From Arenibacter catalasegens (GTDB lineage: Bacteria; Bacteroidota; Bacteroidia; Flavobacteriales; Flavobacteriaceae): DNA of 64,000 nt. The position numbers were made by a program, and so were the translations under genes. The first letter of the stretch is position 1. Every line of letters begins with the position of its first letter. Of this stretch, positions 5,585 through 23,930 are shown in pieces. The DNA lies in NCBI RefSeq assembly GCF_002909235.1, contig NZ_PHQQ01000016.1, positions 1 to 64,000 of the forward strand, written 5' to 3'. Under the pieces are notes generated by a model. That model did no database searches, was not told the DNA's origin, and saw nothing but the letters and a program-made list of their open reading frames with translations.

Positions 5585-5612
5585 GTGGTCCCACCTGGGC
5601 TCGAACCAGGGA
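5585..5612. repeat. attL: 28-bp direct repeat of tRNA 3' end
   Basis: These 28 bases are identical to 23856-23883, the T-arm and acceptor end of the tRNA gene. They start at GTGGTCCC and end at ACCAGGGA. Identity stops sharply on both sides (A versus G before, G versus C after). This is the distal attachment site of the integrated island; the tRNA copy is the proximal one. Confidence 0.93.
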
Positions 5613-5692: not shown

Positions 5693-8194
5693 TTATTTTA
5701 GATTCATAATGCTTGGTTGCAGTGCTTTTTCAAATTTAGGTAAATATGTTACTAAAAAATCATTCATTTTATTCCAATGGGATCTGTCATATAAATTGAC
5801 TTCTTGCAATTCATACTTAATACGGCTCATTTTATTTTCAGGCAATTCTTCCCATTCAAGTTTTTTCCCAAATCTTTCCTCAATCTCTTCCTTATTATTA
5901 AATAACTTTTTGAAATAGTTTTTGTTATTTTCTTTGCTTGAGGAAGTCATCACAAGTTCTATTCTCACGTATTTACTTGTAATAACAAAGGCATATCCCA
6001 GACCACTTATTCCTGCTCCTGCATTTATCCACGATTCTTTAGAAGGGTTTACATTTGAGAAGAGCTCTGTTCCTGTAATTAAAGGTAACAATTGCCTCCA
6101 AAATTCTTTACGTACATTAAAACGATTTGGTAAATTATCATTTCCACTATAGGCATATTTTATGAGCAATTCATCTTCAAGTTCAAATAGGGGGAGGAGT
6201 TTTTTAAGAGTGCTGAATTTAGAGCTACTATCTATATTAGATTCAATAAAATAACCGCTTTGTAATTCTTGTGGAGCCCTAAAATCGGATGCATTACGGG
6301 TTATTTTAAATACCTCATTAGCTTCCAACAAAAGTTGAGCGTTTTTCTCATATAGTTTTTCAATGACATAAAAATACATTTGAGCTATTACTTCTTCATC
6401 CACTTTTGTGTTCTCAAAAATAAAATATTCTAATTTTTTATGCCTAGGAGATTCAGCATCGTATATATTTTGTTCCTCTGAATTTTCAGAATCAGGGATG
6501 GTAATATTAGGGTATTCCCAAATATTAAGAAAACGACTATAAATTAAGTTAAAGCGTTCATTATAGTTAGCAATATTCCAATTATCAATAGTTTTAAGAT
6601 AGTCGTTTAACCAAAGACGACTGTAATTATAACCTTGTTCAGCACCTTGTCTGTTCATTGTTTTTTTATCCCTAAAAGACTTATTACTTAAAGCTCCATT
6701 ATTACCTGACAAGGTTAAATTAGCTATAGAATTAACAAACTTTTCTTTAAATTGAAAATAGTCGTCTGGTGTAATAGCTTTATTCCAATCTTCATTAGGA
6801 GTTTGAGGGAAAATGTGTTCTATTGTGATGTTTTCATTAGCTGTATTTACATATTCTCTATTGTTATAATTCTCTAACAACTCGAACATATAATTCCTGT
6901 TTTTAGACTGAATATTATATAAATCTTTATCTTTTAATGCCGTTTTTAAGTCTTCATCAGTTGGAAATTTAGATCCCCCACTTTTTTTTATCAAAGCCAA
7001 AGCAATAGAGTCGTAATACTCTTCAGTATCAACTTCGGAATATAAGGTCATAAATATTTTATTCAATGCGTTAGTAGGTAAGCCTACTACGAATCTTCTC
7101 CAAGTATAAGATTGTATAAGTTTTAATACTTTAATTAAATCATCATTGGTTATTAAACCATTCTCCGCATCTTCAAATACTTGCAAAAGAAAAGGGAATG
7201 CTACATTTATTTCTAGTCGAGAAATATATTCCAATTCTCTTCTCACATTATTTTCTTGTACTATGTATGGATTAATAAACTTTTTATAATGTGTTGAAAG
7301 TGATTTTATGTTTTCCAACTCTTGATGATATTCTTCATCTTTAATTGAATAGAGTTTCTTAAATTCCAAATAAACTTTGTTTTTATTAGGTATTTTCTTG
7401 TTACGTAAGGTTAGATAATCTCTTATATAGTCGGATACCACAGACTTCTGCTTAATTAAATCTCTTGCGTTTTCTTCAATAGGATTCCAAATTTGTTCAA
7501 ATACTTTATTCTGATTTTTAGGGTCTAAATCCATCAGAATATAGTTCCTAATTAAATCGGATTGTGATAAATCTAACCCAGTAGAATTTAAACTCTCAAA
7601 AATGCGTTGTGGGTCGTCCTTACCTCTTTCTAATGATATTTCAACAAAAATTAATCGCTTTAGTCCATTAAGTATGGTAGGAAAACTCTCTTTTGTAATA
7701 ATACCTTGAAAATATTTGAAGTTTTCAATTACATTAGAGTAGTGGTTAAACTCATTTTCTGTACCATGCATAATAGCTTTAAATGCTAATGAGTTGGTGT
7801 CTGTTTGTTTTAATTTGAGTTTGCTTGATTCGTTCTGAACATACTGATTGGTTAAAAACATATTAAGCAACATATCAGCTTCATTTTTCAGGCTGTTATC
7901 TTTCGCAAAACGAAATAAAGCTACATATATAATGTTAATGGTTGTTAAACGTTGCTGACCATCAATAATCACTAATTCTTTAACTTCGCTTGTGCTATAA
8001 GTGCCTTCGTGTATAAAAACAATACTACCGATAAAGTGTGTACCTCTGTTATATTTTTCTACCGCAATAACATCACTAATTAACTCTTTGCACTCATTAT
8101 TTGTCCAATCGTAATTCCGTTGATATACAGGTATTACAAACTGTACATTAGGTGCTTGTAAGAAATTGGTAATTGGTAGTTCGTTTGCTTTCAT
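5693..8194 (-). CDS. DUF262-DUF1524-DUF4268 restriction-like protein
   Basis: 833 aa. N-terminal DUF262 (GmrS-type, ParB/sulfiredoxin-like nucleotide-binding fold): FVIPVYQRNYDW at residues 19-30 and IDGQQRLTT at 77-85. In the middle is a DUF1524 HNH-type nuclease segment, IEHIFPQ with His460, followed by NLTLSGNNGALSNKSF. The C-terminal ~230 residues match DUF4268 (FWRQLLPLI ... KYVRIELVM ... ERFGKKLEWEELPENKMSRI). DUF262/DUF1524 proteins are NTP-dependent modification-sensing nucleases (GmrSD, SspE relatives). It is the last gene of a three-gene operon, 62 bp after the helicase-methylase. The extra C-terminal domain makes it longer than plain GmrSD. Domain calls are good; target and partners are inferred. 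Confidence 0.85.
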   Translation of the reverse strand: MKANELPITNFLQAPNVQFVIPVYQRNYDWTNNECKELISDVIAVEKYNRGTHFIGSIVFIHEGTYSTSEVKELVIIDGQQRLTTINIIYVALFRFAKDNSLKNEADMLLNMFLTNQYVQNESSKLKLKQTDTNSLAFKAIMHGTENEFNHYSNVIENFKYFQGIITKESFPTILNGLKRLIFVEISLERGKDDPQRIFESLNSTGLDLSQSDLIRNYILMDLDPKNQNKVFEQIWNPIEENARDLIKQKSVVSDYIRDYLTLRNKKIPNKNKVYLEFKKLYSIKDEEYHQELENIKSLSTHYKKFINPYIVQENNVRRELEYISRLEINVAFPFLLQVFEDAENGLITNDDLIKVLKLIQSYTWRRFVVGLPTNALNKIFMTLYSEVDTEEYYDSIALALIKKSGGSKFPTDEDLKTALKDKDLYNIQSKNRNYMFELLENYNNREYVNTANENITIEHIFPQTPNEDWNKAITPDDYFQFKEKFVNSIANLTLSGNNGALSNKSFRDKKTMNRQGAEQGYNYSRLWLNDYLKTIDNWNIANYNERFNLIYSRFLNIWEYPNITIPDSENSEEQNIYDAESPRHKKLEYFIFENTKVDEEVIAQMYFYVIEKLYEKNAQLLLEANEVFKITRNASDFRAPQELQSGYFIESNIDSSSKFSTLKKLLPLFELEDELLIKYAYSGNDNLPNRFNVRKEFWRQLLPLITGTELFSNVNPSKESWINAGAGISGLGYAFVITSKYVRIELVMTSSSKENNKNYFKKLFNNKEEIEERFGKKLEWEELPENKMSRIKYELQEVNLYDRSHWNKMNDFLVTYLPKFEKALQPSIMNLK

Positions 8195-8256
8195 ATTTAT
8201 AATGAATGATCTTATTGGTTTGTTTGAATTTTATGACTTAAAAAACAAAACTCTGG

Positions 8257-11200
8257 TTAAATATTTCTTACTCTGCTTTCAATATAGCTCCATTCATCGG
8301 CTGTAATACCCCAAAGTTTACATAATTGCTCATCGGTATATGTAGCTTCATAGCTTTCTAAATCAGGTATAAAAGCAAAACACTTTCTTGTAACATCTTG
8401 TGATACAACTCTTTGCAATAATAAAAATCGAACTACTTTGGTGAATAGATAAGATTTGAAAGATTTCACTTCTTCTTCGGAATCTGACGAAAAAGCAACT
8501 AAATATGTTTCCGTACAACATTCACCTGGTTTAGCTATTCGAGTATTACCTTCATAATAAAAACCGACAGGTTTAGTAAAATCTGTTTGACCTGCAATAG
8601 GTGATTTCGGTATTAATAATTTCCATTTATCTAAATAATCAAATTTATCAGATATATCTTTTTCAGAAGCAAATTTCAGACCTATACGCTGAGTAAAATA
8701 ACAAGGTAATCCTTGTTTTTTAGGTTTGTAAAAACCTCTAATACCAAATGGTCTTGAAGTTGAAATAAGATTATTTAATGTTTTATTTGATTTATTTAAC
8801 TTTTGCACTTTCTTTAAAATAGGGATTGCTTTATTATCTCTTATTAAAATATCAAAAGCGTCTAAATCTCTTGTTTCCGTACTTAACTCTCCATTAATAT
8901 AATTGGTTATTTTAGTTTTTCCATTGTATTCTTTATCCCAAAGGAAATAACATAAGCCTCCAGCAATATCTACGTTTGTAAAACAATCGTTAGAATTAGG
9001 ATAGTCAAATAATTTTGAAATACGTTTATCATTAAGCATTGTTTCTCTAAACGTATCTAAACCTTTACCACCTGCATACCATCTTGCTGGCATAATTAAA
9101 GACACGTAATCTGGTTGAATGCTTTTTGCTATTTCTACAAAGTGATGATATACTGGTTTTGCACTTACACTATTACCACCATCCATTACTTGATAAGGTG
9201 GATTACCAACTATTGAGTTAAATTTCATATCATTATTTTTATTAGCTTTCCAATAGGATTTCCCTTTTTTGACTTTCTCTAAAAAATTAGATTGTTTATT
9301 TGTAATTTGGTTTTCTAAGTCCTCAAAATACCTTGTATTTACTGTAACATCTCTAAATCCTACCAATGTGCGTCTTGTTATGCTTTTTGCCATTGGTGTT
9401 TTACACAACACAAAAACATTATTTGCTACAACTTTATCCCAAATTTTATGTTGTTCTGAAACTGTTAGTTCATCATAATCTTTATTAGGATAGGCTATTT
9501 TTATAGCATAACGATATACACTATAAGCTATAAACAAAGGGTATAAGCCTGATTTTGAATTAATTTCAAGGATATTACTATCTGTTTTATAAACCTCTTC
9601 AGTTATTTTATCTTGATTAATGTAACGTGGTGTAGTAGTCGTATTTTCAAAATCATCATCAAAAAACACATAACCACCAAGACAATTACCCATATGCATA
9701 TTAACTACACGCCAAGGTGTCAATACTGTTTCTTTATCAGGGTTTTTAAACTTACCAAAGATTGCTGTAATACGTTCTATACGCTCATCTATAGTTAAAC
9801 TATCTGTTGCTCTTGATAAAGCACGTATACGTTTACCAGCTGCTCTAAATACATCAGGCTCATAGTATTTTTTAAACTTTTCAAAAGTGGCTTTTGTCAC
9901 ACCTTTTGGCATAAACTCTGTCCAAGATTGGTTATCAACTAAATCAGCAAAATTGTCAATAGTTAATTCCTTTTCTTCATTTTTAATATCTGCACCATAA
10001 ATTAGTAATGGCATACGAATAGAAATACCTCGAAGAATAGAAACAGCAGTATCTCTATTTTTCTTTTTCTCTTTTCTCTCGTCTAAAAGTTTTTTATCCT
10101 CTTCTGTTAAATCTTCTTCTCTCTTTTTCTTAGCTGCTTCTAATTTTTGGTATTCTTCCTCTGTAAAACCTTGTTTATTAATATCTATCTCACTTGTTCT
10201 TGGAATTGCCTTAGTGCTACCAATAATCTTTTTAAGTCCATTAAATTCTTCTAATTCAACAGCCCCTAATTTCATCAATTGGTCGTTATTGTATAAGTGA
10301 GAATCTTCAAAACCATTACTTACAACTCGCTCTATGTATACTTTTTTAAGTTGTTCAAGCATTGTATTGACGTTATACTCTTTCATTTGAGTACCATCAG
10401 CAGAAATAATTGGACAAAAGTTTAAAAACTCGCCCATTACTATACGGTCTTGGTCTGTCGTTTTACCTGCTTTAGCAGACATTTTTGCAGTTTCGGCAAT
10501 TACTTTAAGTGTTCTATCAGGTGCAAAGTCAAATACAAAACATTCTTCTTTAACCTTACCATTAATAGTTGCAGGTGTTTGTACTCTAAAAATAGTTTGC
10601 ATATAACTTGATGCAGAAGTATTGTGAGAACCTGAAAGCATAAATACTGCTGTCCATGCCTTTACAGAAACACCCGTTGTAAGACGACCACAGGATAAAG
10701 TTATTGTGTAGGTATCTTGTGGTTTATCTGTTATTGCTTTTTCAACTTTTTTAAGTGCTTCTTCATTGTCTTCATCTACATCACCGTCTCCAGCTACATT
10801 AACAATATTAAAATGACTAAAAACTGGATGCGAATTTAATAAGGTGCTTAAAGATCTTGCTTCTTTAACGCCTGGAACCATCCATAAAGAATGACGGAAA
10901 TTATCTCTATATTCTTGGGTGGCAAAAGGATAGTTGCTTTCAGAATCACCTTTGCAAATAAGGTTTAAAAACTTTTCTACATCTTTTTTATGTATAAAAT
11001 TGTCTGTTTCATCAACTCTAAAAAACTCTTTGAAATTAAATGCTACATCTTCATCTACAAAGTCATTTATAAGTTTACCTAAATCGTAAGTAAAAATATT
11101 CATCCTAGGCAATGATGCATAAGGATTAGGGTCGCCAAAATGTATTTCGTCCCAATCTTGTTTTGCCTTTTGCTCCATTACATAATCCCAAGTATAAATG

Positions 11201-12183
11201 TCTTCTTCCTTGTAATCATCTATTAAATTGAATGGCGTACCTGATAAATGAAGAATTTTAGGATTATTTCGTCTCAGCACATTTAAAACATTGCCACCTA
11301 GTTCGGTTTGCGTTCCTTCGTGGGCTTCATCTACAATTATAAAATCCCAAGCAGCATCAAAAATCTCATCATTTTTATTAAAATTACCGCCTACTAATTC
11401 AGAACCTCTTAAGTCTTGCATAGAGGCAAAATATATGTAATGAATATCTTCTTTTTTACTACGCTTTTCTAATGAGAGAAATTCTTCTCCTTTATTTTTA
11501 GAGCCATAATGATACTCTTCTTTGTCATAAAATATTTTACCAAAATCTTCAAACCAACCTGAATCTACAACAGGTCTGTGCGTTAGTATTAATGTTCTTT
11601 TAAAATCGTGTTCTCTAATTACTTGTAAAGCAGATAGTGTTTTACCAAAACGCATTTTAGCAAACCACAACATTTCATCACTTTTTTTAAATTGCTTTTT
11701 AGTTTTGGCAATAGCATCTTTCTGTTCAGGTCTAAAAATTATTGGACTTTGATTTGTAGATATTTCACTTGCGTTTAATGATGTTTTACCTTCCTTTACA
11801 GCCTTTATTGCCTTTATAACGGTTTCTAAATCTGTAATAACCCATTCATTAGCCTTATTTTCAATGTCGAAAACCTTTTTTTTGATACCTGAACGAAAAA
11901 GAACATTTCTTACCTCATAATCATTAAACGATTTAATCGATCCTTTATCATTAAAAACCGTTACTTCAGTATACAATAAATCATAAGATATACCTGCTGT
12001 TTGGGTATATTGATTAATTCTTGTTTTAGCAGACTTATTAAGTTTACTACTATTTGGTTCAAGTCCCCAAATATCTTCATTATCTGAAGTAGCCTCCCCA
12101 ACTTTCAAACAACCTAAATGTGCAGTATCGTTAATACGAAACACATATATTAATTTAAGTTTTAGTGATGAAGTAAATTTCAT
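8257..12183 (-). CDS. GIY-YIG/SF2 helicase/Eco57I-type methylase fusion
   Basis: 1308 aa, apparently a single-chain restriction-modification enzyme. Residues ~10-120 resemble a GIY-YIG (T5orf172-like) nuclease: IYVFRIN (Tyr13), LKVGEA (27-29), Arg55, Glu90 and EW at 113-114. Residues ~150-620 are an SF2 translocase: FAKMRFGKT Walker A (175-182, K181), VDEAHE DEAH box (284-289), LSGTPF (313-318) and a motif VI-like TIFRVQTP. A charged coiled stretch follows at ~660-710. Residues ~840-1100 form an N6-adenine methylase: a motif I-like LEINSKSGLYPLF at ~872-884 and catalytic NPPY at 994-997. The last ~200 residues are probably the target-recognition domain. The layout parallels Type ISP enzymes but with a different nuclease. 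The SAM-binding-like partner gene ends 5 bp upstream. Confidence 0.88.
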   Translation of the reverse strand: MKFTSSLKLKLIYVFRINDTAHLGCLKVGEATSDNEDIWGLEPNSSKLNKSAKTRINQYTQTAGISYDLLYTEVTVFNDKGSIKSFNDYEVRNVLFRSGIKKKVFDIENKANEWVITDLETVIKAIKAVKEGKTSLNASEISTNQSPIIFRPEQKDAIAKTKKQFKKSDEMLWFAKMRFGKTLSALQVIREHDFKRTLILTHRPVVDSGWFEDFGKIFYDKEEYHYGSKNKGEEFLSLEKRSKKEDIHYIYFASMQDLRGSELVGGNFNKNDEIFDAAWDFIIVDEAHEGTQTELGGNVLNVLRRNNPKILHLSGTPFNLIDDYKEEDIYTWDYVMEQKAKQDWDEIHFGDPNPYASLPRMNIFTYDLGKLINDFVDEDVAFNFKEFFRVDETDNFIHKKDVEKFLNLICKGDSESNYPFATQEYRDNFRHSLWMVPGVKEARSLSTLLNSHPVFSHFNIVNVAGDGDVDEDNEEALKKVEKAITDKPQDTYTITLSCGRLTTGVSVKAWTAVFMLSGSHNTSASSYMQTIFRVQTPATINGKVKEECFVFDFAPDRTLKVIAETAKMSAKAGKTTDQDRIVMGEFLNFCPIISADGTQMKEYNVNTMLEQLKKVYIERVVSNGFEDSHLYNNDQLMKLGAVELEEFNGLKKIIGSTKAIPRTSEIDINKQGFTEEEYQKLEAAKKKREEDLTEEDKKLLDERKEKKKNRDTAVSILRGISIRMPLLIYGADIKNEEKELTIDNFADLVDNQSWTEFMPKGVTKATFEKFKKYYEPDVFRAAGKRIRALSRATDSLTIDERIERITAIFGKFKNPDKETVLTPWRVVNMHMGNCLGGYVFFDDDFENTTTTPRYINQDKITEEVYKTDSNILEINSKSGLYPLFIAYSVYRYAIKIAYPNKDYDELTVSEQHKIWDKVVANNVFVLCKTPMAKSITRRTLVGFRDVTVNTRYFEDLENQITNKQSNFLEKVKKGKSYWKANKNNDMKFNSIVGNPPYQVMDGGNSVSAKPVYHHFVEIAKSIQPDYVSLIMPARWYAGGKGLDTFRETMLNDKRISKLFDYPNSNDCFTNVDIAGGLCYFLWDKEYNGKTKITNYINGELSTETRDLDAFDILIRDNKAIPILKKVQKLNKSNKTLNNLISTSRPFGIRGFYKPKKQGLPCYFTQRIGLKFASEKDISDKFDYLDKWKLLIPKSPIAGQTDFTKPVGFYYEGNTRIAKPGECCTETYLVAFSSDSEEEVKSFKSYLFTKVVRFLLLQRVVSQDVTRKCFAFIPDLESYEATYTDEQLCKLWGITADEWSYIESRVRNI

Positions 12184-12188
12184 TAATC

Positions 12189-13196
12189 TTAATTATTTAA
12201 TAGGTCTATAAATCTTATCTTCTTGCCTTTGCGTCCTGTTGTTTTGTCAATATATGACCAGTCTTTTATAATACAATATGTACCATTATGATTTTTTAGT
12301 ACTTCTTTTTGGCAACCAACACAAGGGAAGCACTTAATTTCTTCGATACCAAAAAGTATTTCGGTGGTTGTACAAATTGTTTCGCAAGAATCAGGAACAA
12401 CCCCTTTAATACCATCCATTTGCCAAATATTCCAAGAGATAATATAGGCTATGTATTTTATAGATTTTAATAATGGCTCTTTGCCAAACTTTAATACATA
12501 GTTTTCAATAAATGTAAACAACATAGCTTCTCTTGCTAATAGCAAACTATCTCCTTGCCATTCGTATGCATAAGTAGATTTAAAAGCTGTTTGGGCAGCA
12601 TTTAACCACTCACCTGAAGTATTTACATTTTCATTAATCACTCTAAGTTTACGGTCTAATATGCCTATTCTTTCATATATAGGAATAAATGCCCCTGTTG
12701 TTGTATCATAGCGACTAGTTATATAAGGCGCTTCACCACAAGCCATTTCAAGACGTTTATCTCTTATGTAATTTTTCCACGTTTTATTCTTAGGGAAAAT
12801 TATCTTTTGTGGATTTACCTCCCAAATCCAATTACCATTAACAAGTTCTGTTTCTTTATTAAAGACATTTTCTTTCTCAAACCAAGAATTATCAATTAGA
12901 TTATTTTGTGCATTACAAATCCAAGATGGTGTAAATACTTCTGCCATATTTCTCACTCTTGATAGTTGCAAAATTTTATCTTTTTGTACCCGTGGCATAA
13001 TTACATTGCCATTATGCCCTGTAATTAATTCAGGATATATTTCGGATTTAAAACTATATGATATACCTAAACTATCGTAGTTATTAGTTGCCCATAAAAT
13101 ATTCTTATGAGTAGTGTGGTCGCGTAAAAGAACATCCAGTACATCAGGATATTTTTCAAGGATTTCATTTTCTAATATGTCAATTTTATTACACAA
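12189..13196 (-). CDS. methyltransferase-like subunit lacking the catalytic motif
   Basis: 335 aa, started at TTG 13196; the codon before it is a stop and the next Met is residue 67, so TTG is almost certain. It carries the SAM-binding half of an N6-adenine methylase: AEVFTPSWI (residues 85-93, motif X-like), LEMACGEAPYI (149-159, motif I-like) and YEWQGDSLLLAR (211-222), then ISWNIWQMDGIKG. No (N/D)PP(Y/F) catalytic motif is present anywhere. A CFPCVGC cluster at 289-295 could bind zinc. It is the first gene of the operon, 5 bp before the helicase-methylase. Similar proteins are often labelled restriction endonuclease subunit M; the role is inferred. Confidence 0.75.
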   Translation of the reverse strand: MCNKIDILENEILEKYPDVLDVLLRDHTTHKNILWATNNYDSLGISYSFKSEIYPELITGHNGNVIMPRVQKDKILQLSRVRNMAEVFTPSWICNAQNNLIDNSWFEKENVFNKETELVNGNWIWEVNPQKIIFPKNKTWKNYIRDKRLEMACGEAPYITSRYDTTTGAFIPIYERIGILDRKLRVINENVNTSGEWLNAAQTAFKSTYAYEWQGDSLLLAREAMLFTFIENYVLKFGKEPLLKSIKYIAYIISWNIWQMDGIKGVVPDSCETICTTTEILFGIEEIKCFPCVGCQKEVLKNHNGTYCIIKDWSYIDKTTGRKGKKIRFIDLLNN

Positions 13197-13398: not shown

Positions 13399-13424
13399 AA
13401 AGGGCAACATTACTGCTGCCCTTT
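13399..13424 (-). terminator. terminator of the GIY-YIG/ATPase operon
   Basis: Stem AAAGGGCA (13399-13406) / TGCCCTTT (13417-13424), with a T-rich tract following on the minus strand. It sits immediately after the stop of the GIY-YIG gene and separates it from the restriction-like operon. Confidence 0.75.
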
Positions 13425-13428
13425 AAAC

Positions 13429-14079
13429 TTAGGTGTATTTCCAAAGAAACCCACCTGTTTGTTCTCTCTCACCTCTACAACATCTTGAAATACAGGTTTT
13501 GGATATTCCTGAAATCCTTGATGCTTCGGCTACAGAAACATATTTAATTATAAATTCTCCATTTAATGTATTTTGACAAACAAACTTTTTTCTATCATCA
13601 ACAGCCATATCAATGGTAAAATTCTCATTGTAACTCCAATAATTATTGTCAAGTAAATGTGTCTTGCTAAGGCAAGCATTTGATATCCTTTTATTGGTTA
13701 CACCAGTTACACTAGCTGCACTAGTTAAGGAATCATATTCTGAAATCAAATTACCTTTCAAATCAAATTGGTAAACCATCTTTTTAAAACCACCTCCTGA
13801 ATCTGAATTCAAACCATTTTTAAATGAGTCATATTTCAAAATGAAATCTTTCTCTTTCTTGGCTAATTCGTTGATGTCATTTGCGGTATCAATCTCTACC
13901 CAGCTGAAGGCATCAGCGCCATATGTTGCAATGGCGCTTTGAAAATTACTGCCTTCCAATCTCGAAGCCTTATTTATATGGTCTACTATTCTTTCTTTAA
14001 TAGATTTCGTAGTAGCCCCTATATAGACTTCCTGGGTTTCTCTATTTACTGCTTTGTAAACAAGCCCAAACGAACTCAT
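13429..14079 (-). CDS. GIY-YIG endonuclease with NUMOD1 repeats
   Basis: 216 aa. Residues 1-95 are a GIY-YIG nuclease: GLVYKAV (5-11), EVYIGATT (17-24), Arg30 in IKERI and a downstream Glu in ELAKKEKDFI. Two C-terminal repeats (about 104-150 and 168-214) follow the NUMOD1 DNA-binding pattern (VYQFDLKGNLISEYDSLTSA and a second copy with VAEASRISGISKTCI). This is the architecture of free-standing homing-type endonucleases of phages. It lies 11 bp after the RepA-like ATPase in the same direction and is followed by a terminator. It may spread itself at its locus or attack competing elements. Confidence 0.85.
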   Translation of the reverse strand: MSSFGLVYKAVNRETQEVYIGATTKSIKERIVDHINKASRLEGSNFQSAIATYGADAFSWVEIDTANDINELAKKEKDFILKYDSFKNGLNSDSGGGFKKMVYQFDLKGNLISEYDSLTSAASVTGVTNKRISNACLSKTHLLDNNYWSYNENFTIDMAVDDRKKFVCQNTLNGEFIIKYVSVAEASRISGISKTCISRCCRGEREQTGGFLWKYT

Positions 14080-14090
14080 GTTCCAATAGT

Positions 14091-15116
14091 TTATTTTGGT
14101 ATGCAGTAATTCCCATTATTATTAACTATTTCATTTTGTAGAATTAACTTTTTAAGGTTATTAAAGAGCGTTTTTCGGCTCATAGTATTCGTTGAGACAA
14201 ATTCCTTTTCCAATTCACCACTAGCACTGCATGAGTTCGATTTTAGATACTCCAAAATCCCGTCTGCGTTACTATTGTCCCTACGACCATCCATTTCCTG
14301 ATACAACTTATATTCATGAACTTCACCGATGGAGTTAATCCAAAGTTTGTCGTCAATACTATACGTTGTTACGGTTTCAGAATAATCATCGGCGTACCTG
14401 AAAAAGATATTTTTAATATACCTGTCATTCAACTGTGTTCTAGTAACTGCAATGGCAAAGTCAGCTTCTTGAGCCAAAACTCTACTACCAGCCATACTAT
14501 CACGTGTAATGGGTTTGTCTCCCATTTTCGTTGAATGATGAATAACAATCATGGTAATCCCTAGATTATAGGTAATATCCCTAAGCTTTTGGGTCACCCT
14601 TTTAGCGGTCTCACTTTCTTCAATATTTGAGGCAAGTCTGGTCAAACTGTCTATAAAAACAACCTGAGCCTCACTTTCTTCAATTAAGTTTTGAAAACGC
14701 GACCAATCTTTATCATTATCAACATATCTTAAAAAATCCTTAGGCGAAGTTTGATAATTTTGTTCCAATCTTTTCTTTGAAACATCTTCAAAAATGCTTA
14801 TTTGTTTAGCATTTCGATAAGCTCTGCTGAGCCAATATTCCTCAAGACTTACGAATAAGACTTTTTGAGGTTGCTCAATCAACTTATCGCCTAAATAATC
14901 CTCTGAACCAACAGCTAATTTCATCGCCAAGTTTTCACATAAAACAGTTTTACCTGATTTACTGGGACCAAATATAAATCCGAACGAACCTTTAGTAATT
15001 CCTCGCCATATGATTTCAGGAGCGGGCTCCTTTTCTGATTTCTTAATTAATTCCATAATTGATAATGGATGCTCTTTATCTGTTTCTACATCCTCATTTT
15101 TTTTGTTTTTAAACAT
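14091..15116 (-). CDS. RepA/RecA-like AAA ATPase
   Basis: 341 aa. The ATPase core has GPSKSGKT Walker A (50-57), the VVFIDSL Walker B segment (D156), a sensor-like MIVIHHSTK (193-201 region) and the GSRVLAQEADFAIAV block typical of the RepA/AAA_25 hexameric helicases of plasmids and phages. The last ~60 residues (NADGILEYLKSNSCSASGELEKEF) look like a winged helix. It probably unwinds or loads at an element origin. It is followed by the GIY-YIG gene after 11 bp. The family call is firm; a replication role is inferred from the fold and the surrounding genes. Confidence 0.82.
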   Translation of the reverse strand: MFKNKKNEDVETDKEHPLSIMELIKKSEKEPAPEIIWRGITKGSFGFIFGPSKSGKTVLCENLAMKLAVGSEDYLGDKLIEQPQKVLFVSLEEYWLSRAYRNAKQISIFEDVSKKRLEQNYQTSPKDFLRYVDNDKDWSRFQNLIEESEAQVVFIDSLTRLASNIEESETAKRVTQKLRDITYNLGITMIVIHHSTKMGDKPITRDSMAGSRVLAQEADFAIAVTRTQLNDRYIKNIFFRYADDYSETVTTYSIDDKLWINSIGEVHEYKLYQEMDGRRDNSNADGILEYLKSNSCSASGELEKEFVSTNTMSRKTLFNNLKKLILQNEIVNNNGNYCIPK

Positions 15117-15307
15117 AATTTTTCTTCATTTAGAATACACACTCTAGAAATGCATACTCCTTTCTTTTCTTTTAAATTTCTCCCTCTTTTCTAAGGTCGG
15201 GAGTTTAACCCAATTATAGCGCTATAGATTCCATTCATGACTGGATCCAATACAAAGTAATGAAGAAGAGTAAATAAAATTTGAGGAAAGTTTATTGTCC
15301 CTAAGGA

Positions 15308-16054
15308 TTATTCCTTGTAGAAGTCTGGATTCTGGAACGTATTCATAAGTCTTTTCTTCGATTCTGAAACTATAGGAGGAGTTTGTTGATTGTATGCGCT
15401 TAGTCTTTTTCTGGAATCATTGATCGGTGAAAAATTTTCTCCGTCACTGTATTCAATCAAATTGTCAATAATCCTTGCATACGCTGTATTAGATAAGTAT
15501 TCTATTTGTTTATTTTCTCGTAGGAGGTGGAAGAAATAGAGAACATCAGCTTTGTTCCAATTGAATTTAAGTTTTCCGTCTGCATAAGGAAAAGGATGCT
15601 TTATATAATTTTCAATATCCTGGATTAATCTTTCCAATTGTTGTAAAACTCTTTTTTTAATTTCATCATCCAGATGAGGGGCTTCTTCTATTACACTAAA
15701 CCATTTAAGATAGTCATTTATAACTATTTTGGAATAGTTCTGGAGGGATTCGGAATTGATAATTGATTTTTCATCAATATTCTTTTGGAATTCCCCATAA
15801 TGGTAGATTGCCATTCTTGAAACTTTCGGATATAAAAAGTCTTTTAAAAAGTACTTGTATATTTCTCCAACTATACCACGTTCGTCATCAACATCAAGCT
15901 CCTTGATTTTAAAATCGGTTACGGAGTGCAAAAGCTCAAGTTCTTGAAGACTAGGCTGCTCTATTGATTGAATGCGGAAATCTTCCCTTAAACCATGATA
16001 ATTTATCTCAGTAGTAAAATCCGTAAAATTTAATTCTCTAATAACATACCTCAT
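15308..16054 (-). CDS. unknown protein with RteC-like C-terminal region
   Basis: 248 aa. No firm family. Residues ~160-215 (KLKFNWNKADVLYFFHLLRE and the following helices) resemble the C-terminal helical part of RteC-type regulators of Bacteroides conjugative elements. The rest is helical and charged, without catalytic motifs. A 20-bp inverted repeat with short GTTACAC-type units lies 9 bp upstream of its start, which fits an autoregulated DNA-binding or initiator protein. About 190 bp separate it from the downstream RepA-like ATPase, so the two may share a transcript. Confidence 0.45.
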   Translation of the reverse strand: MRYVIRELNFTDFTTEINYHGLREDFRIQSIEQPSLQELELLHSVTDFKIKELDVDDERGIVGEIYKYFLKDFLYPKVSRMAIYHYGEFQKNIDEKSIINSESLQNYSKIVINDYLKWFSVIEEAPHLDDEIKKRVLQQLERLIQDIENYIKHPFPYADGKLKFNWNKADVLYFFHLLRENKQIEYLSNTAYARIIDNLIEYSDGENFSPINDSRKRLSAYNQQTPPIVSESKKRLMNTFQNPDFYKE

Positions 16055-16062
16055 ATAACAAA

Positions 16063-16125
16063 TTACTTACACTAGTTACACTGCGTCAATTTATACAATG
16101 TAATTAGTGTAACCAATGTAAGTAA
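16063..16125. promoter_or_regulatory. 20-bp imperfect inverted repeat, origin or operator candidate
   Basis: Arms 16063-16082 and 16106-16125 are inverted copies with two mismatches around a 23-nt centre. The motif GTTACAC/GTGTAAC and the related TTACTTACA/TGTAAGTAA appear in each arm, and a further ATGTAATT lies in the centre, giving about five half-sites in 63 bp. The dense repeats near replication-type genes suggest an iteron origin or a promoter operator. Confidence 0.55.
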
Positions 16126-16268
16126 TAAATAAAGGTAATCCGATTTAAAGACTAATAAATCAAACCTTGTTGCACAAAATCATTTTCAGTGGTTTTTTGA
16201 TATAGGAGAAACCGTCTCAAAAGCTTGGATATCCAAAATTCAGCATAACTCCGTTTGCTCTATAGGAA

Positions 16269-16520
16269 CTAATCCGTTAATATTTCAAAGTGATGGTAGT
16301 AATATGCCCTCCCCTGAATAATATATACCGTTTTTAATTCCTTGGTAATCTTTACATGCTCCACCCAAACTACGCTCCCTTTCACCAATGCCTCCAAATC
16401 ATCTAAAACAAGGACTTTAAAGGGGGTAAATAGGAGCTTCAGCAAGTTGTTCCAGGTCACAACGTAAAGTTCATTAGGGGAGCTGTATTTAAGCAATTCT
16501 GCCAGTTGTTTTTCATTCAT
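16269..16520 (-). CDS. small hypothetical island protein
   Basis: 83 aa. Not recognised. It has no signal peptide or membrane segment; the sequence is a helix (NEKQLAELLKYS) followed by beta-rich stretches (ELYVVTWNN, KVLVLDDLEALV, TVYIIQGRAYYYHHF). It lies between the DUF3871 gene and the RteC-like gene in the same direction, consistent with an accessory role in the same module. Confidence 0.55.
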   Translation of the reverse strand: MNEKQLAELLKYSSPNELYVVTWNNLLKLLFTPFKVLVLDDLEALVKGSVVWVEHVKITKELKTVYIIQGRAYYYHHFEILTD

Positions 16521-16586
16521 AACATTATTTTCTAGGAGGATATTTTAAACTTGCACCTCCCCTCAAAACAGGAAATAGCTATAATA

Positions 16587-17570
16587 TTAATTTGAGAGCA
16601 ACCAATTGGAGGTGTGGTTTTCCATGGAAATACCTAGGTTATTCACTAACTCGTATGCATTGACATTGCGTTCCAAATTATTATCTATATAAGAGGACTT
16701 GTTCGCTTCCGTAAACATATTGTACAAATTCCACAGGTTAATGGACCCATCAGTGTCTCTACTAAAATTTTGCCCAACATAGTACTCCTTGACCACATTG
16801 TTTATTTGGCTGTCATTGAGTGATACAGGAAACACCTGCCTGTGCTCGGTTTTATCCAAATGCGGGTACATGCGAAGTTTTCCTATGAAATGAGCAAACT
16901 GCCTTTCAGTCAATTTATAGCTGCTCAAACGCTTCATTGTCCCAATATGCTTTTCCTTATCATAACCTTCAAATAGCTGTGCCATCCGCTGCTCCATGTC
17001 CAGTATAGAACCAATACGTATATCATTGGAAAAACCATCAGTACTTATACAAAGATTGGTACATACCCTATTCTTGAAACCAATGAAAACCTTGAATTTT
17101 TCCAAAGATTTTCTACTATAAAGGTTTTCTTGGCTAAGACTTCTCACACCTCCTATGCTCAAATTAAGCTCGTTCCCATTCACAATTTCTTTTACACTTG
17201 GCAGTTCAATTAAAAAGGCACAGCGCTCATAATAGATGGTCTTTTCATGTGGCATTAGCTCCTTGGCAGGTTTACCCACTGCTGAAGGAATCCTTCCTTT
17301 TATGACATGGCTCACCCTAATATTTGGCGGTCTAATTTCCGTTTCAGGGAATAATTTTTGAACCACTTCATGCGCTTTATCTATAAATTGAAAATGCGAA
17401 ATGGTGGATTCATTATCCTTGCTAAATACTGGAATTACACAGTCATTTTTTAAATGCTCTAAAGAAACCTTCTGTGTATTGGCTTCTATAAAACTACTGG
17501 ATGGATTACTGGATACTTTTGAAGCATCCTGTATCATCTCTATGGGGTTATGATTAGCTATTAATTCCAT
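16587..17570 (-). CDS. DUF3871 family protein
   Basis: 327 aa. The sequence matches the DUF3871 family found on Bacteroidota mobile elements: HFQFIDKAHEVVQKLFP, then IRVSHVIKGRIPSAVGKPAKEL, the segment YERCAFLIELPSVKEIVNGNELNLSIGGVRSL and HLDKTEHRQVFPVSLNDSQINNVV. The layout recalls DUF932-type plasmid/phage proteins that accompany recombination ATPases, but no biochemical role is established. Its start overlaps the end of the Sak4-like ATPase gene by 17 bp, implying translational coupling. Confidence 0.75.
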   Translation of the reverse strand: MELIANHNPIEMIQDASKVSSNPSSSFIEANTQKVSLEHLKNDCVIPVFSKDNESTISHFQFIDKAHEVVQKLFPETEIRPPNIRVSHVIKGRIPSAVGKPAKELMPHEKTIYYERCAFLIELPSVKEIVNGNELNLSIGGVRSLSQENLYSRKSLEKFKVFIGFKNRVCTNLCISTDGFSNDIRIGSILDMEQRMAQLFEGYDKEKHIGTMKRLSSYKLTERQFAHFIGKLRMYPHLDKTEHRQVFPVSLNDSQINNVVKEYYVGQNFSRDTDGSINLWNLYNMFTEANKSSYIDNNLERNVNAYELVNNLGISMENHTSNWLLSN

Positions 17571-18444
17571 TGTTATTTATTTTATTTGGTTCAACAATAT
17601 TTTCTTGGTCAATCAATTGGTTATTCATGTTTTCAATGGACTGTTTTCGTTTTATAAGCAATGGATGTATTTCAGACTGCATACTGGTGTATTTAGAGTA
17701 TAATTCCCTTAACCCATCCACAGTAGTACATGATTCTATTTCTAGTTTGACATCCTCCAAGGATAGTCCCAAATTGCACCACTGCATCAATTTTTTCCCA
17801 GTGGCTTGATTTATTATGAATTCCTGTTTGTCCATAAATAAGCCTGTTCTATCCTTGGATGCCTTCGCCAAATGTTTGTCATTGATTAGTTCAAAATTCA
17901 CGGTAAGTTCATATTCAAAGCCCTCGCGCGTAATTTCTTTGGTACCATGTTTGACAACCTTAGTCTTTCCATTTTGGTCACTATCCAAGGAGTAGTCAAT
18001 CTTGCTCCTTACAGTAGTTATTATATGACATGAGGATTGTAGAATGGCATCAATAAAACTCTGATGCCTTGGAGAAACCTTTGCCCAATCTTGGAACCTT
18101 CCCCCTAATTGTTCATGAATCTGTAGACAGCCTCCCTTACCCTGCCACTCATGGGTAATACTATCAATAACTATGACCTCCATAGAGGCTTTCTCACAAG
18201 TTTTAATGGCATTGATATATCTTTCTGGACTGTAGAGCTCATCTAGAGAAAGCACGTTAAAATTGCCCAAATGAGCATATAAATTGGCACTGTTGTTTTC
18301 AGTATCAATAATGGCTATTTTAGACCAATCGTTGGTAATACCATTTGCCAGCAATAAAGCAGAAAATGTCTTTCCAAATCCACTGGCTCCACTTAATCCA
18401 AGTCTTAGTTTTACTTGGTGCCGTTGCGCTGTTTTTAATTCCAT
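17554..18444 (-). CDS. Sak4-like AAA ATPase (AAA_24 type)
   Basis: 296 aa. Compact RecA-like ATPase: GASGFGKT Walker A (19-26), DTENNSANLY (48-57) and VIVIDSI Walker B (D94), then ITTVRSKIDY and a family-typical GFEYELTVNFELINDKHLAKASKDRTGLF. Such proteins are phage single-strand-annealing or recombination ATPases that act with an SSB. The ~60 C-terminal residues are polar and low complexity (NNQLIDQENIVEPNKINNNGINS). It overlaps the DUF3871 gene by 17 bp; a small OB-like protein is encoded just upstream. Confidence 0.8.
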   Translation of the reverse strand: MELKTAQRHQVKLRLGLSGASGFGKTFSALLLANGITNDWSKIAIIDTENNSANLYAHLGNFNVLSLDELYSPERYINAIKTCEKASMEVIVIDSITHEWQGKGGCLQIHEQLGGRFQDWAKVSPRHQSFIDAILQSSCHIITTVRSKIDYSLDSDQNGKTKVVKHGTKEITREGFEYELTVNFELINDKHLAKASKDRTGLFMDKQEFIINQATGKKLMQWCNLGLSLEDVKLEIESCTTVDGLRELYSKYTSMQSEIHPLLIKRKQSIENMNNQLIDQENIVEPNKINNNGINS

Positions 18445-18513
18445 AATTATTATTTTAAGGGTTTATAATTAAAAATATTACACTTTATACTTTTTGAGAA
18501 TAGGGCATAAAAA

Positions 18514-18538
18514 AAGGACCTCTTATGTAGAAGTCCTT
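18514..18538 (-). terminator. terminator after the small OB-like gene
   Basis: AAGGAC (18514-18519) pairs with GTCCTT (18533-18538), and the minus strand continues with a run of seven T. It lies 27 bp after the stop of the 114-aa gene and before the ATPase gene, so it may attenuate read-through between them. Confidence 0.65.
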
Positions 18539-18565
18539 CCATTATCTAGGCGGGTCATTACTTTT

Positions 18566-18910
18566 CTAAGCCACCACTTCGCTTTTAATCACATTATTCC
18601 TAAGAATAGAGTCCTCTTCGTTTATATATTCAAAACGGTGGGTCAATGTCATAACTTCTCCAGTCGCCTGATTGGTATACTGATAAGGTTCGGTTTCCAC
18701 CCTTTCAATCCTACCTTCAAGTTCTGTTCCAATAGAAGCTTTGCACATATCTTCTTTAAATGTACATGCAACCTTAGCCTCCCTAACAGTTAGGTACGTT
18801 CTATTGGTCTCTTGGCTTTTTACCGCCTCAATACCACCTTGCACCACTAGTGCATAAAATTCTTTCCCATCCTCTTTTTGATAGGTTTTGTAATCCACAA
18901 TTTTTACCAT
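18566..18910 (-). CDS. small beta-rich protein, possible ssDNA-binding partner
   Basis: 114 aa with no family I can name. Strand-rich pattern (FYALVVQGGIEAV, RTYLTVREAKVACTF, TELEGRIERVETEPY, LTHRFEYINEED) compatible with an OB fold. It is located directly upstream of the Sak4-like ATPase, where phages often encode their single-strand binding protein. A GGGGGTATCCCC palindrome lies upstream (about 18952-18963). SSB function is an inference from position and strand pattern only. Confidence 0.45.
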   Translation of the reverse strand: MVKIVDYKTYQKEDGKEFYALVVQGGIEAVKSQETNRTYLTVREAKVACTFKEDMCKASIGTELEGRIERVETEPYQYTNQATGEVMTLTHRFEYINEEDSILRNNVIKSEVVA

Positions 18911-19096
18911 GGTTTTAAATTTTTAAGATTAAACAATACGGGGGTATCCCCAAAAGTCAAGAGGAGCGGGGGTTGAAGTCTAGGTTCATACGTTTTCACC
19001 TTGAGAAAAGGTAAAAAAAAATTACTGGAAAAAAATTTTTGGTTTGGATTTACTATTACTACTTTAAGGGGGTATGATAATTACCTATTGACACTT

Positions 19097-19510
19097 CTAA
19101 ATCCTTATTACTTTATAATCAATTAAGTTCCCTTCCTTAAACTCCAATGCGAATTCCTTTTCATATTCTGATAAATAATCTGCATGGACGTATTTAGTGA
19201 CTTTTCCATGTGGTACACGATCGGTTCCGCTAAACCATTGGGCATATACCCTCTCTTTCCCAGGAAATAAATAGTCAAGACCAACATCAATAATATCATT
19301 ACCATCTTCAATTTTACCACTAAAATCAATGAGGTAAAGTTGATTGTTGATTAACTCCCAACTTCCTATATATCCACGCCAACAGGCTGTACTAAATAAG
19401 ATAAGTTTTGGCTTAGGTTGCAATTCCTTTAAATACGCTGCCAGTGGCTCCGTAGCCATACCATATTCTTTTCCATCAATAATGAGCCTTTCTTTTAATT
19501 GAGCTGTCAT
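19097..19510 (-). CDS. hypothetical cargo protein
   Basis: 137 aa, cytoplasmic, no catalytic motif. It belongs to a conserved but uncharacterised type seen in scattered bacteria, with DGKEYGMATEPLAAYL, STACWRGYIGSWEL, an LFPG segment followed by VYAQWFSGTDRVPHGK, then YVHADYLSEYEKEFALEF. I associate this family loosely with accessory loci (immunity-like genes), which I cannot verify. It sits among cargo genes near the integrase end. Confidence 0.5.
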   Translation of the reverse strand: MTAQLKERLIIDGKEYGMATEPLAAYLKELQPKPKLILFSTACWRGYIGSWELINNQLYLIDFSGKIEDGNDIIDVGLDYLFPGKERVYAQWFSGTDRVPHGKVTKYVHADYLSEYEKEFALEFKEGNLIDYKVIRI

Positions 19511-19545
19511 AATCTTTATCTATAATCTTAATAAATATCAGAAAC

Positions 19546-20562
19546 CTAATAATTCATTTGTTCTTCCAGTAGGTTTTCTATCATTAAAAAATCCTCTTCC
19601 GTCAATTCTTTTTCAATAGGTACATGTCCTAGATTTTTTGCTGTTTGAACATGTTCTGCAATCATTATGGAATAAATTGTGTCAATATTATCCGCTATGA
19701 ATATTTGTTGACTCTGTACATAACCATTTTCTAAATAAAATAGAATAAAAAGCACGCTAGGAATATTGTCACTTAAATTATGTGCTATCCTTTCTATCAA
19801 TTTGGGTTTTATCTCCTTAACTTCGGCAAAACTTGTATAAAAACTACTTCTATAAGTAAGTAGCTCCAAAGCTGACTTCTTTAAATCTCTATTATCATAA
19901 CAAAAATTATAATAATATTCCGTTAGTACTCTAGATGTTTCCCCTGCATATCCTGGTTTATTTCTGATTAATTCGATTAATTCTGATTTCGCATTATCTT
20001 TATGTACATCCCCTTCATTCTTCAATTCAATATATTCTTCCTTGGAAAAATGTGTATTCGAAGTAGTATAAATGATATTAGCCCATACTCCAGTTGTTTG
20101 ATTTTCAAAATATACATTTGAATCCGTTTTAACTATTGTGTTAAATCCAATCATTGTAACGATACTAAAGCAAACACCTCCATTCCTTTTTGAACTCAAT
20201 TCATAATAATCAAAGCCCTTACTGTGATTTTTCAATGGTACCATGTAAGAATAGAGTTTAGAGTCGTTAGAAACTAAACTAGGCGACTTATCTTGAAGAA
20301 GAAATAACAAGGCATTTTTATAACTAGGAAAAGTTTCAGATATCTTCTTAGAACTTTTAATATTATCATATAAAGTTTTGGTATTATCGAATATTGATTC
20401 TACAATTAAAAAAACCAAACCAATACAGCATCCAAAGATTAATATTGCTATAAATATTGGTGTAATTCCATCAGTTGGCAAAATTCCACTTATTAACCCA
20501 ATAATAAATGCCCCTAGTACGGTCCCACCAATAAAGGAGATGACAAATTTTGAAGTATCCAT
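19546..20562 (-). CDS. hypothetical membrane protein (cargo)
   Basis: 338 aa. Two hydrophobic helices at the N-terminus (residues ~6-28 and ~34-55: FVISFIGGTVLGAFIIGLIS and PIFIAILIFGCCIGLVFLIV), then a ~280-residue soluble domain ending in an acidic tail (LTEEDFLMIENLLEEQMNY). No recognised domain. It lies in a run of minus-strand cargo genes; the neighbours are a secreted protein and a lipoprotein. Confidence 0.6.
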   Translation of the reverse strand: MDTSKFVISFIGGTVLGAFIIGLISGILPTDGITPIFIAILIFGCCIGLVFLIVESIFDNTKTLYDNIKSSKKISETFPSYKNALLFLLQDKSPSLVSNDSKLYSYMVPLKNHSKGFDYYELSSKRNGGVCFSIVTMIGFNTIVKTDSNVYFENQTTGVWANIIYTTSNTHFSKEEYIELKNEGDVHKDNAKSELIELIRNKPGYAGETSRVLTEYYYNFCYDNRDLKKSALELLTYRSSFYTSFAEVKEIKPKLIERIAHNLSDNIPSVLFILFYLENGYVQSQQIFIADNIDTIYSIMIAEHVQTAKNLGHVPIEKELTEEDFLMIENLLEEQMNY

Positions 20563-20597
20563 TACAGTTCTATCATTTTTAATTTTAGCTTAATACA

Positions 20598-21080
20598 CTA
20601 AAAACAATTTAAATTATTTTTTAAAGTCAATTTATTTTCAGTAACAGTAGCGCCAACCAAATTATCGCCGACATACACATAAATGCCTTTTAACGAGTAA
20701 TTTGACAACTCTTTATATGATGTTTCATCAATTTCATAAAGCCCAATTGCCACATCCCTACCGTTCATTTCTATCAATTCTGACATTACAGGCTTTAAGG
20801 ATATACCCTTGCTATTTGTAGTTTGAATAATTAAGTTTCCTCTTAGATTTTTAGGTGGTTTTCCTTTAAACAAAACTGAAGTATTGACCATTACTACTTC
20901 CGTTGTAATATTTTTATAAATTGAAACCCCAATTTCATATTCAGTTTGTCGAATTACTGGTTTAGGATTAAAGTATTTAATGATATTACCATCTGGTCTT
21001 TCAGTTGTTTTAATATCACATTGTCCATATGTGGCTAGACACACTAAACAGGCAAGTAATGCTAAATGTATATTTTTCAT
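20598..21080 (-). CDS. hypothetical secreted protein (cargo)
   Basis: 160 aa with a clear signal peptide (MKNIHLALLACLVCLATYGQ) and a beta-rich mature part (IIKYFNPKPVIRQTEYEIGV, EVVMVNTSVLFKG, KGIYVYVGDNLVGATVTENK). No family recognised. It is 35 bp upstream of the membrane protein gene and probably co-transcribed with it. Confidence 0.6.
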   Translation of the reverse strand: MKNIHLALLACLVCLATYGQCDIKTTERPDGNIIKYFNPKPVIRQTEYEIGVSIYKNITTEVVMVNTSVLFKGKPPKNLRGNLIIQTTNSKGISLKPVMSELIEMNGRDVAIGLYEIDETSYKELSNYSLKGIYVYVGDNLVGATVTENKLTLKNNLNCF

Positions 21081-22424: not shown

Positions 22425-23636
22425 CTATTGCTGGTTTCTCTCTTTCAGCCTAATTATTTCTTCACTTACTCTTTTCTGAACAACCTTTCCATAATATTCT
22501 TGGGTAATCTTCATACTGGAATGCCCCAATAATTCACTTACTATTTCCATGGGAACATCATTATAAAGGAGCACAGTAGATGCAAATGTCTTTCTAGCCA
22601 TATGATGGCTAATGGATTTATTTATTCCGACAATATCAGCAATTTCTTTTAAGTAGGAATTAATCTTTTGGTTGCTAAATTTTGGCAACGAATAATCCTC
22701 CACTTCTTTATTATACTTATCTAGTAGGACCTTGGCTTGTGGCAGTAAAGGAATGGAAATCATCTTACTTGTTTTTTCCCTTTTCATTTTAATCCAAAGG
22801 TTACCGTCAAACCCCTTTATAATGTGCTCCGTTTTTAAATTGGACATTTCGTTATATGCCAAACCCGTATAACAGCAGAAAACAAAAAGGTCTTTTACCA
22901 ATTGTAACCTAGGTTGTGAGAAATTATGGCATTCCAACTTTTCCAATTCTTCCGTAGACAGGAAAATAACCTCTTTTTTAACTCTCCTAGGCTTATGTAG
23001 TGCAAAGGGGTCTTTATCCAAATAACCTTCCGCTACAGCCACCTTAATAGGCTTCCTAAAGCGCTGTATTGCCTTGTTTATAGTAACCTGGCTTTGTTCT
23101 TCTTCCGTCTTTAAATAATACTCAAAATCAACTAAAAACTGAGAAGTTAAATCTCCTAAAGGGATGTCAATTTTTTTATATTTCCATTTGACATAACGTT
23201 CAATTTGGGAGCATACATAGTTGTACTTTTTCCAAGTAGCCATTTGAATGTCTTTCCCGATAAGTTTTTTAATCTTAGCAACATATTCCTTTATATAGTA
23301 GACTAATTTTACTTTATCTTTTAGTGGCTTTCCAACATAGTAATTGAAAACATCATCAATTGAAAATTCAATCCCTTTAAGCTGTAGTTTTAGATAGGTG
23401 GCTGTTATTTTAGAGGAAATTAATTCTAATTGAATATTTAAATGTTGTCCACTAGAAGATTCTGGAGTAACATATTGCTTCTTTGAATTCCATTGTTTTG
23501 GATTTAGGAATAATCCAGTAGAAAATTGTTTCCTATTCTTTTCGTAGGTGATTCTACAGTAAATAGGGCATTTTCCTTTTTGATTTGTTTTCGCCTTATT
23601 CAAATAAAATAAGACAATTAGATTTTTTTGATTCAT
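22425..23636 (-). CDS. tyrosine recombinase/integrase of the island
   Basis: About 403 aa from the ATG at 23636; that start gives the usual Bacteroidota N-terminus (IVLFYLNKAKTNQKGKCPIY, then an arm-binding KQFSTGLFLNPKQW). A SAM-like core-binding domain follows at ~110-200, then the catalytic domain. Catalytic residues: His345/Arg348 in HHMARKTF, LGHSSMKITQEYY with Tyr381. The first arginine of the usual TGLRxxE box is alanine (TGLAYNEM), a known feature of several Bacteroidota integrases. It lies beside the tRNA attachment site and reads away from it, so it is the enzyme that inserted and can excise the island. Confidence 0.93.
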   Translation of the reverse strand: MNQKNLIVLFYLNKAKTNQKGKCPIYCRITYEKNRKQFSTGLFLNPKQWNSKKQYVTPESSSGQHLNIQLELISSKITATYLKLQLKGIEFSIDDVFNYYVGKPLKDKVKLVYYIKEYVAKIKKLIGKDIQMATWKKYNYVCSQIERYVKWKYKKIDIPLGDLTSQFLVDFEYYLKTEEEQSQVTINKAIQRFRKPIKVAVAEGYLDKDPFALHKPRRVKKEVIFLSTEELEKLECHNFSQPRLQLVKDLFVFCCYTGLAYNEMSNLKTEHIIKGFDGNLWIKMKREKTSKMISIPLLPQAKVLLDKYNKEVEDYSLPKFSNQKINSYLKEIADIVGINKSISHHMARKTFASTVLLYNDVPMEIVSELLGHSSMKITQEYYGKVVQKRVSEEIIRLKERNQQ

Positions 23637-23743
23637 GACCAATTGGTTTAGGGTTAAACAATTGGCATACAATTCAGATTTGTAATAATGGGATACCTGA
23701 GATTTAAATTGGGATACCCACAGGGATACCTCAAAGCTCAAAA

Positions 23744-23759
23744 AAGTTGACAAGTTGAC
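23744..23759. repeat. right copy of inverted arm-like repeat
   Basis: AAGTTGACAAGTTGAC is the inverted counterpart of the last 16 bases of the repeat at 5638-5655, with one mismatch. It lies about 97 bp inside the tRNA-side attachment site, upstream of the integrase. Candidate integrase arm site or excisionase site. Confidence 0.5.
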
Positions 23760-23853: not shown

Positions 23854-23930
23854 TGGTGGTCCCACCTGGGCTCGAACCAGGGACCACCTGATTATGAGTC
23901 AGGTGCTCTAACCAACTGAGCTATAGGACC
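23854..23930 (-). tRNA. tRNA with CAT anticodon (Met, or Ile with lysidine)
   Basis: Cloverleaf on the minus strand: acceptor GGTCCTA pairs with TGGGACC, D-arm AGCTCAGTTGGTTAGAGC, anticodon stem ACCTGAC-loop-closing with loop CTCATAA (anticodon CAT), T-arm CCTGG/TTCGAGC/CCAGG, and encoded CCA at 23856-23854. The sequence alone does not decide between elongator Met and Ile2. It is the integration target of the island; its last 28 bases plus the discriminator are duplicated at 5585-5612. Confidence 0.95.
23856..23883. repeat. attR: tRNA-side copy of the 28-bp repeat
   Basis: Identical to 5585-5612 and part of the intact tRNA gene. Recombination between the two copies would excise the island and leave one tRNA gene. 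Confidence 0.93.

Follow-up and report, generated by a model that had tools for sequence, protein, structure and literature searches.

We analysed a 64,000-nucleotide stretch of the Arenibacter catalasegens genome (contig NZ_PHQQ01000016.1, positions 1 to 64,000; hereafter the window), in which three minus-strand genes lie at the attachment (att) end of an 18.3-kb tRNA-Met island. The open reading frames (ORFs) are gene 1, or M (12189..13196, 335 amino acids (aa), TTG start), gene 2, or R (8257..12183, 1308 aa), and gene 3 (5693..8194, 833 aa). Gaps of 5 bp (genes 1 and 2) and 62 bp (genes 2 and 3) agree with the preliminary description of this DNA, which had proposed a new three-gene defence operon here. 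Two identical 28-bp copies of the tRNA-Met 3' end bound the island: one is within the tRNA gene (23856..23883), and the distal one (5585..5612) puts the trio next to attL, as had been claimed. An integrase-like ORF, recognised by eye, adjoins the tRNA (22425-23753). The terminator reported between gene 1 and the replication genes corresponds to a terminator-like minus-strand hairpin found by pattern search (13399..13424), such patterns being only mildly in excess in the window (8 found vs 4.0 expected). The operon DNA shares 81-85% identity with its counterpart in Maribacter stanieri DSM 19891 (locus L020; loci of relatives carry L numbers), with protein identities of 85% for M, 85% for gene 3 and 75-96% for the modules of R. 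In that locus (15000-20996) a 70-aa ORF, not found in the window, lies between R and gene 3, and behind gene 3 comes a 1088-aa protein that matches HATPase_c weakly.

Gene 1 has the motifs of the S-adenosylmethionine (SAM)-binding half of an N6-adenine methylase, as the preliminary description had noticed: motif X (AEVFTP, residue 85), motif I (LEMACGEAPY, 149) and motif II (YEWQGD, 211), together with a Cys-rich tail. It has no Pfam match, and matches the PADLOC model MTase_II PDLC03390 (327 aa) with 371 bits. NPPY occurs in none of the 83 aligned M rows, one of which (L069) is cut by a contig end. The structural model of M aligns with residues 10-155 of CamA, 161-468 of MmeI and 782-1074 of LlaGI; the NPPY of CamA is situated just behind the aligned range. 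A sequence search of the PDB returned nothing useful for M or R.

Gene 2 encodes a nuclease-helicase-coupler-methylase chain, as judged from Pfam (ResIII 4.9e-14, Eco57I 8.4e-31), PADLOC (REase_MTase_IIG PDLC03626, 149 bits) and alignment. Residues 1-145 (11749..12183, minus strand like all modules of R) form a putative GIY-YIG/T5orf172-type nuclease domain. Pfam detects no nuclease domain in gene 2 itself, including no Mrr match, and a T5orf172 search of the same genome hit two places, neither within R. The assignment comes from a relative, L018, with whose MUG113/T5orf172 domain the N-terminus of R aligns (27%, E 7e-9); K27, G29, R55, D88 and E113 are conserved in 97% or more of 72 R proteins. 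The earlier call of a nuclease-helicase-methylase fusion thus stands directly for the helicase and methylase parts and through this relative for the nuclease. Residues 146-660 (10204..11748) are a superfamily 2 (SF2) helicase/translocase with FGKT at 179 and VDEAH at 284, and residues 661-815 (9739..10203) a helical linker or coupler whose border is approximate. Two methylase-like modules follow. Residues 816-985 (9229..9738), which we call the Lys half, resemble a SAM-binding half in which Lys (K877) replaces the first Gly of motif I; this holds in 74/74 rows, where the motif reads K-[SQT]-G (K-M-G in L181), and by eye motif II has lost its acidic residue as well. Of 30 control loci, 26 lie outside the family and have motif I in view, and none of these 26 has this Lys. 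With K877 in that half, R is not a self-contained methylase with an intact SAM motif. Residues 986-1308 (8260..9228), the NPPY half, carry NPPY at 994, found in all 74 rows, and a hypervariable specificity domain, and begin with an in-frame ATG that is a candidate internal start.

The intact SAM motifs and NPPY are therefore split between two proteins, so that a single methylase appears to be divided between M and the end of R, a point that the preliminary description overlooked. Four observations on the modules link the NPPY half to M. In L188 and L189, M runs straight into an NPPY half and the adjacent helicase chain stops after the Lys half. The NPPY half is also found as a stand-alone gene, which PADLOC model PDLC03375 (348 aa) matches over its length; in the 80 genome loci described below, extra NPPY halves were limited to pieces of R itself. 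Phage PTm1 (L169/L178/L206, 193.8-196.4 kb) has a helix-turn-helix (HTH) gene, M and an open NPPY half, preceded by a frame with a stub of the Lys half. The NPPY half is the only Eco57I match in this phage, and frames of at least 150 aa at its three ResIII matches have no similarity to R or its relatives. Finally, we compared P-type (53) and Q-type (17) R proteins, omitting 2 of 72 as a third type; the start of the NPPY module had been set at residue 986 before the comparison, on the basis of the stand-alone genes. Identity between the types collapses for the nuclease, helicase, coupler and Lys half, and is hardly lower for the NPPY core, the specificity part and M (counted for 51 and 15 loci). 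From motif distribution, modularity, gene pairing and fusions we conclude that M and the last 323 residues of R would together make up the methylase.

To assess gene pairing, we searched for relatives of M. In the phylum, 9 of 395 genomes have one (two only marginally), and a species-genome collection gave at least 528 stretches. We fetched the 80 best of these stretches, each 3.5-21 kb long, which biases the sample towards close relatives, most of them Bacteroidota. R directly follows M in 75/80 loci, with a gap of -23 to +25 bp in 70 of the 75; four of the five loci lacking R are cut by a contig end, and L098 is not. In 12 of the 78 loci with room upstream, M is preceded by an HTH gene resembling the one in L013, in the manner of the control proteins of restriction-modification (RM) systems; the listed ORFs of the window include none. 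M-R is a widespread RM pair. In L018, L019 and plasmids of Companilactobacillus, Enterococcus and Lactococcus, the M that goes with R-type proteins belongs to a second family, about 230 aa long and with a canonical motif I. On plasmids L203-L205, a sister branch, this short M stands with an R of different N-terminus (no GIY-YIG by eye). M-like genes also occur without R nearby on virus contigs L179, L190, L192 and L194-L198; an Eco57I search of six of these eight records matched L179 alone, at two places, and the frame examined there has a motif I of its own. Behind Q-type R in L058, L061, L071 and L088 lies a conserved protein of about 100 aa that has no Pfam match.

We think it probable that genes 1 and 2 form one ATP-dependent RM system with a split adenine methylase, that the remainder of R cuts through a shared recognition domain, and that gene 3 is a separate nuclease. 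In such a system M would supply the SAM-binding half, and the C-terminal 323 residues of R, comprising the NPPY core and the target-recognition domain, would be the catalytic, sequence-reading half; the two would associate and methylate host sites. The remaining modules of R (GIY-YIG-type nuclease, SF2 translocase, coupler and SAM-dead Lys half) would use the same recognition domain and cut unmethylated DNA after translocation. As sequence anatomy, methylase and nuclease do share one variable specificity element.

A conserved codon at Met986 bears on whether R may also yield the NPPY half separately. Eight residues before NPPY, 91 R-type genes have ATG (84), GTG (4) or CTA, CTT and ATA (1 each), while the runner-up among 30 positions, six residues after the first base of NPPY, has ATG in 37/91. 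The four Val codons, two of them from near-identical genes, are all GTG, which makes up 0.25 of Val codons, and none of 28 control methylases has Met at the corresponding position. Over all 17 plasmid and virus-contig genes, the Shine-Dalgarno (SD) energy at the site averages -5.9, against -1.6 for 446 ATGs elsewhere in frame, and the site is the best of its own gene in 8/17 (p 3e-7, the genes not being independent); the signal is poor or absent in L180, L185 and L193. We prefer these figures to those of an earlier 14-gene set (-7.1 vs -1.6, 363 controls), which was chosen post hoc without these three genes. These observations suggest that R also yields the NPPY half by internal initiation, to which we give slightly less than an even chance. 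One step further, R read whole would be the restriction chain, and read from Met986 a separate catalytic half of 323 residues that combines with M as methylase, so that the same half would pair with the live M for marking and with the dead Lys half for cutting. This tentative reading we hold to be slightly less likely than not. Under it, marking and cutting would always read the same sequence and a single cassette swap would change both, because the NPPY half is common to them.

The opposing explanation, in which the conserved ATG/GTG remains from an exchange of cassettes or encodes a methionine needed for structure, is in our view just as likely true as false. The SD likeness appears to be carried by the encoded residues, since synonymous shuffling reproduces most of it, and a synonymous-codon test with 11 representatives was not significant (Fisher p 0.28), which weighs against an internal start. 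Stand-alone and fused NPPY halves are intermixed on a tree (no support values), and L185 has an inverted repeat at NPPY, both in keeping with this explanation. Against it stand the 88/91 ATG/GTG codons, the Val codons, the control methylases and the SD energies given above. The other 74 genes, mostly from Bacteroidota, have no SD signal at the site (-0.3, weaker than the -2.1 at other ATGs), in line with hosts that make no use of SD. Their site is A-rich and less folded than the rest of the gene in 71/74, with A/T at 365/543 third positions vs 342 expected; an Asn/Asp/Lys-rich linker may account for this.

The inverted repeat belongs to virus contig L185 (8220-15213), where R is followed by a further NPPY/target-recognition half with no clear start, an inverted half and, by eye, a tyrosine-recombinase-like gene; the repeat, 33 bp long and 97% identical, lies over the NPPY codons. 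This single locus is possibly an invertible specificity switch, and would fit an exchange of recognition halves. Inverted cassettes sought in the window yielded a sole 18-bp, 89% repeat, likely a chance one.

A different view of M is that R is a self-sufficient Type ISP-like enzyme, its Lys variant binding SAM and M being a structural or DNA-contacting pseudo-subunit. The model of R shows a complete methylase fold, similar to CamA, LlaGI, BrxX and MmeI (among the Foldseek matches listed, which leaves room for other families), and M.TaqI also has no canonical Gly at that position. Yet M precedes R almost throughout the fetched loci, M and the NPPY half occur together without the nuclease-helicase part in PTm1 and as a fusion in L188/L189, module identities group the NPPY half with M, and the short M of L018, L019 and L203-L205 has a canonical motif I. 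We therefore regard a self-sufficient R as improbable.

Gene 3 is a GmrSD-family nuclease, the family named in the preliminary description: Pfam finds GmrSD_N (DUF262, 2.2e-34), GmrSD_C (DUF1524, 2e-19) and DUF4268 (1.3e-33), and the motifs DGQQR (78), RIFES (197) and EHIFP (459) include the DGQQR of DUF262 and the [DE]HIxP of DUF1524 that are named in passages of the BrxU paper (PMC8565348). Its only PDB match by sequence is SspE, which it resembles weakly. The same trio recurs in L020 and, as a DUF262-DUF1524-DUF4268 gene 31% identical to gene 3 right behind R, on 2 of 13 virus-contig loci that have R (L186 and L187, the latter with a different R type; the set omits L200, a weak match). GmrSD-type genes occur in 4/80 M loci (L020, L029, L033, L062; two phmmer queries), where the density of 67 Pfam matches over 99 genomes (340 Mb) would give 0.24, and one of eight inspected M-bearing plasmid records (of 17) has a DUF262 gene. 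On this Enterococcus faecium plasmid (L171, 12122-14180) the genes behind M-R are one with DUF262 alone and a small one whose RHRYAH motif looks HEPN-like by eye.

Such recurrence favours a dedicated system in which an RM enzyme and a modification-sensing nuclease evolved to work together. The rest of the survey speaks against it. No GmrSD-type match was found in the 3.5-21 kb stretches of 76/80 loci, a gene-3 ortholog follows R in only one (L020), and other cargo takes its place behind R (DUF3644, DUF2971, DUF488, AbiJ_NTD4 and what by eye look like an S8-type protease and an accompanying AAA protein). Relatives of gene 3 occur at E <= 1e-30 in 25/395 genomes, and none of ten inspected stands beside M-R: one is next to a Type IIG-like gene (L130), two lie by eye within Type I-like operons (L136, L137) and seven have no obvious RM partner. 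The GmrSD excess would also be expected from defence islands. The trio thus survives as one apparent operon that recurs, and the fixed three-gene system is rejected from both sets of neighbourhoods; an evolved partnership of all three we consider unlikely. The association being recurrent but loose, gene 3 is an optional add-on to M-R, probably a separate GmrSD-type nuclease riding along and aimed at DNA with other modifications, which it would sense.

The dual guard against modified and unmodified invaders that had been suggested has already been demonstrated for BREX+BrxU (PMC8565348); the trio represents a type of partnership known before. As in that system and in GmrSD Type IV enzymes, a DUF262-DUF1524 nuclease with DGQQR and H-I-x-P sits in a methylation-based defence locus, but here its partner is a helicase RM pair, it carries an extra DUF4268, and its cleavage of modified DNA is predicted. 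DUF262 does not occur in the main text of PMC8565338, and no BREX model is among the listed matches of the six window proteins scanned.

As for M-R itself, the earlier comparison with Type ISP enzymes (LlaGI, LlaBIII) is upheld by the nuclease-translocase-coupler-methylase-target-recognition order in one chain, with the nuclease part indirect; R differs by a GIY-YIG-type in place of the Mrr-type nuclease of that class, by the Lys in motif I and by the separate SAM-binding half M. With Type IIG enzymes (PDLC03626; MmeI, DrdV, BpuSI), endonuclease-methylases that have no ATP-driven helicase, R shares the methylase core and the database label, but it has a helicase (ResIII, FGKT, DEAH) and no intact SAM motif of its own. 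On these grounds R is rejected as an ordinary member of either class. Unlike Type I systems, none of the three genes is an S gene, the hypervariable part being the C-terminus of R. The PacII M1M2S methylase (7vs4), compared by title alone, likewise has two unlike methylase subunits, plus an S subunit. We could not match the split, shared half to a known family, a negative that no literature search underpins. Among the other genes of the window, one at 13429-14079, beside the replication genes, is GIY-YIG homing-endonuclease-like, with NUMOD1 stretches.

PDLC03390 and PDLC03375 are each labelled as a methyltransferase alone, and are read here as two halves of one enzyme. If this is true, several hundred genes of the kind annotated today either as 'Type II methyltransferases' in their own right or as 'Type IIG' enzymes would be halves of one split enzyme, and one exchangeable half for marking and cutting would explain how specificity changes without killing the host. 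Phage PTm1, which seemingly keeps the methylase halves alone, would be a natural test case.
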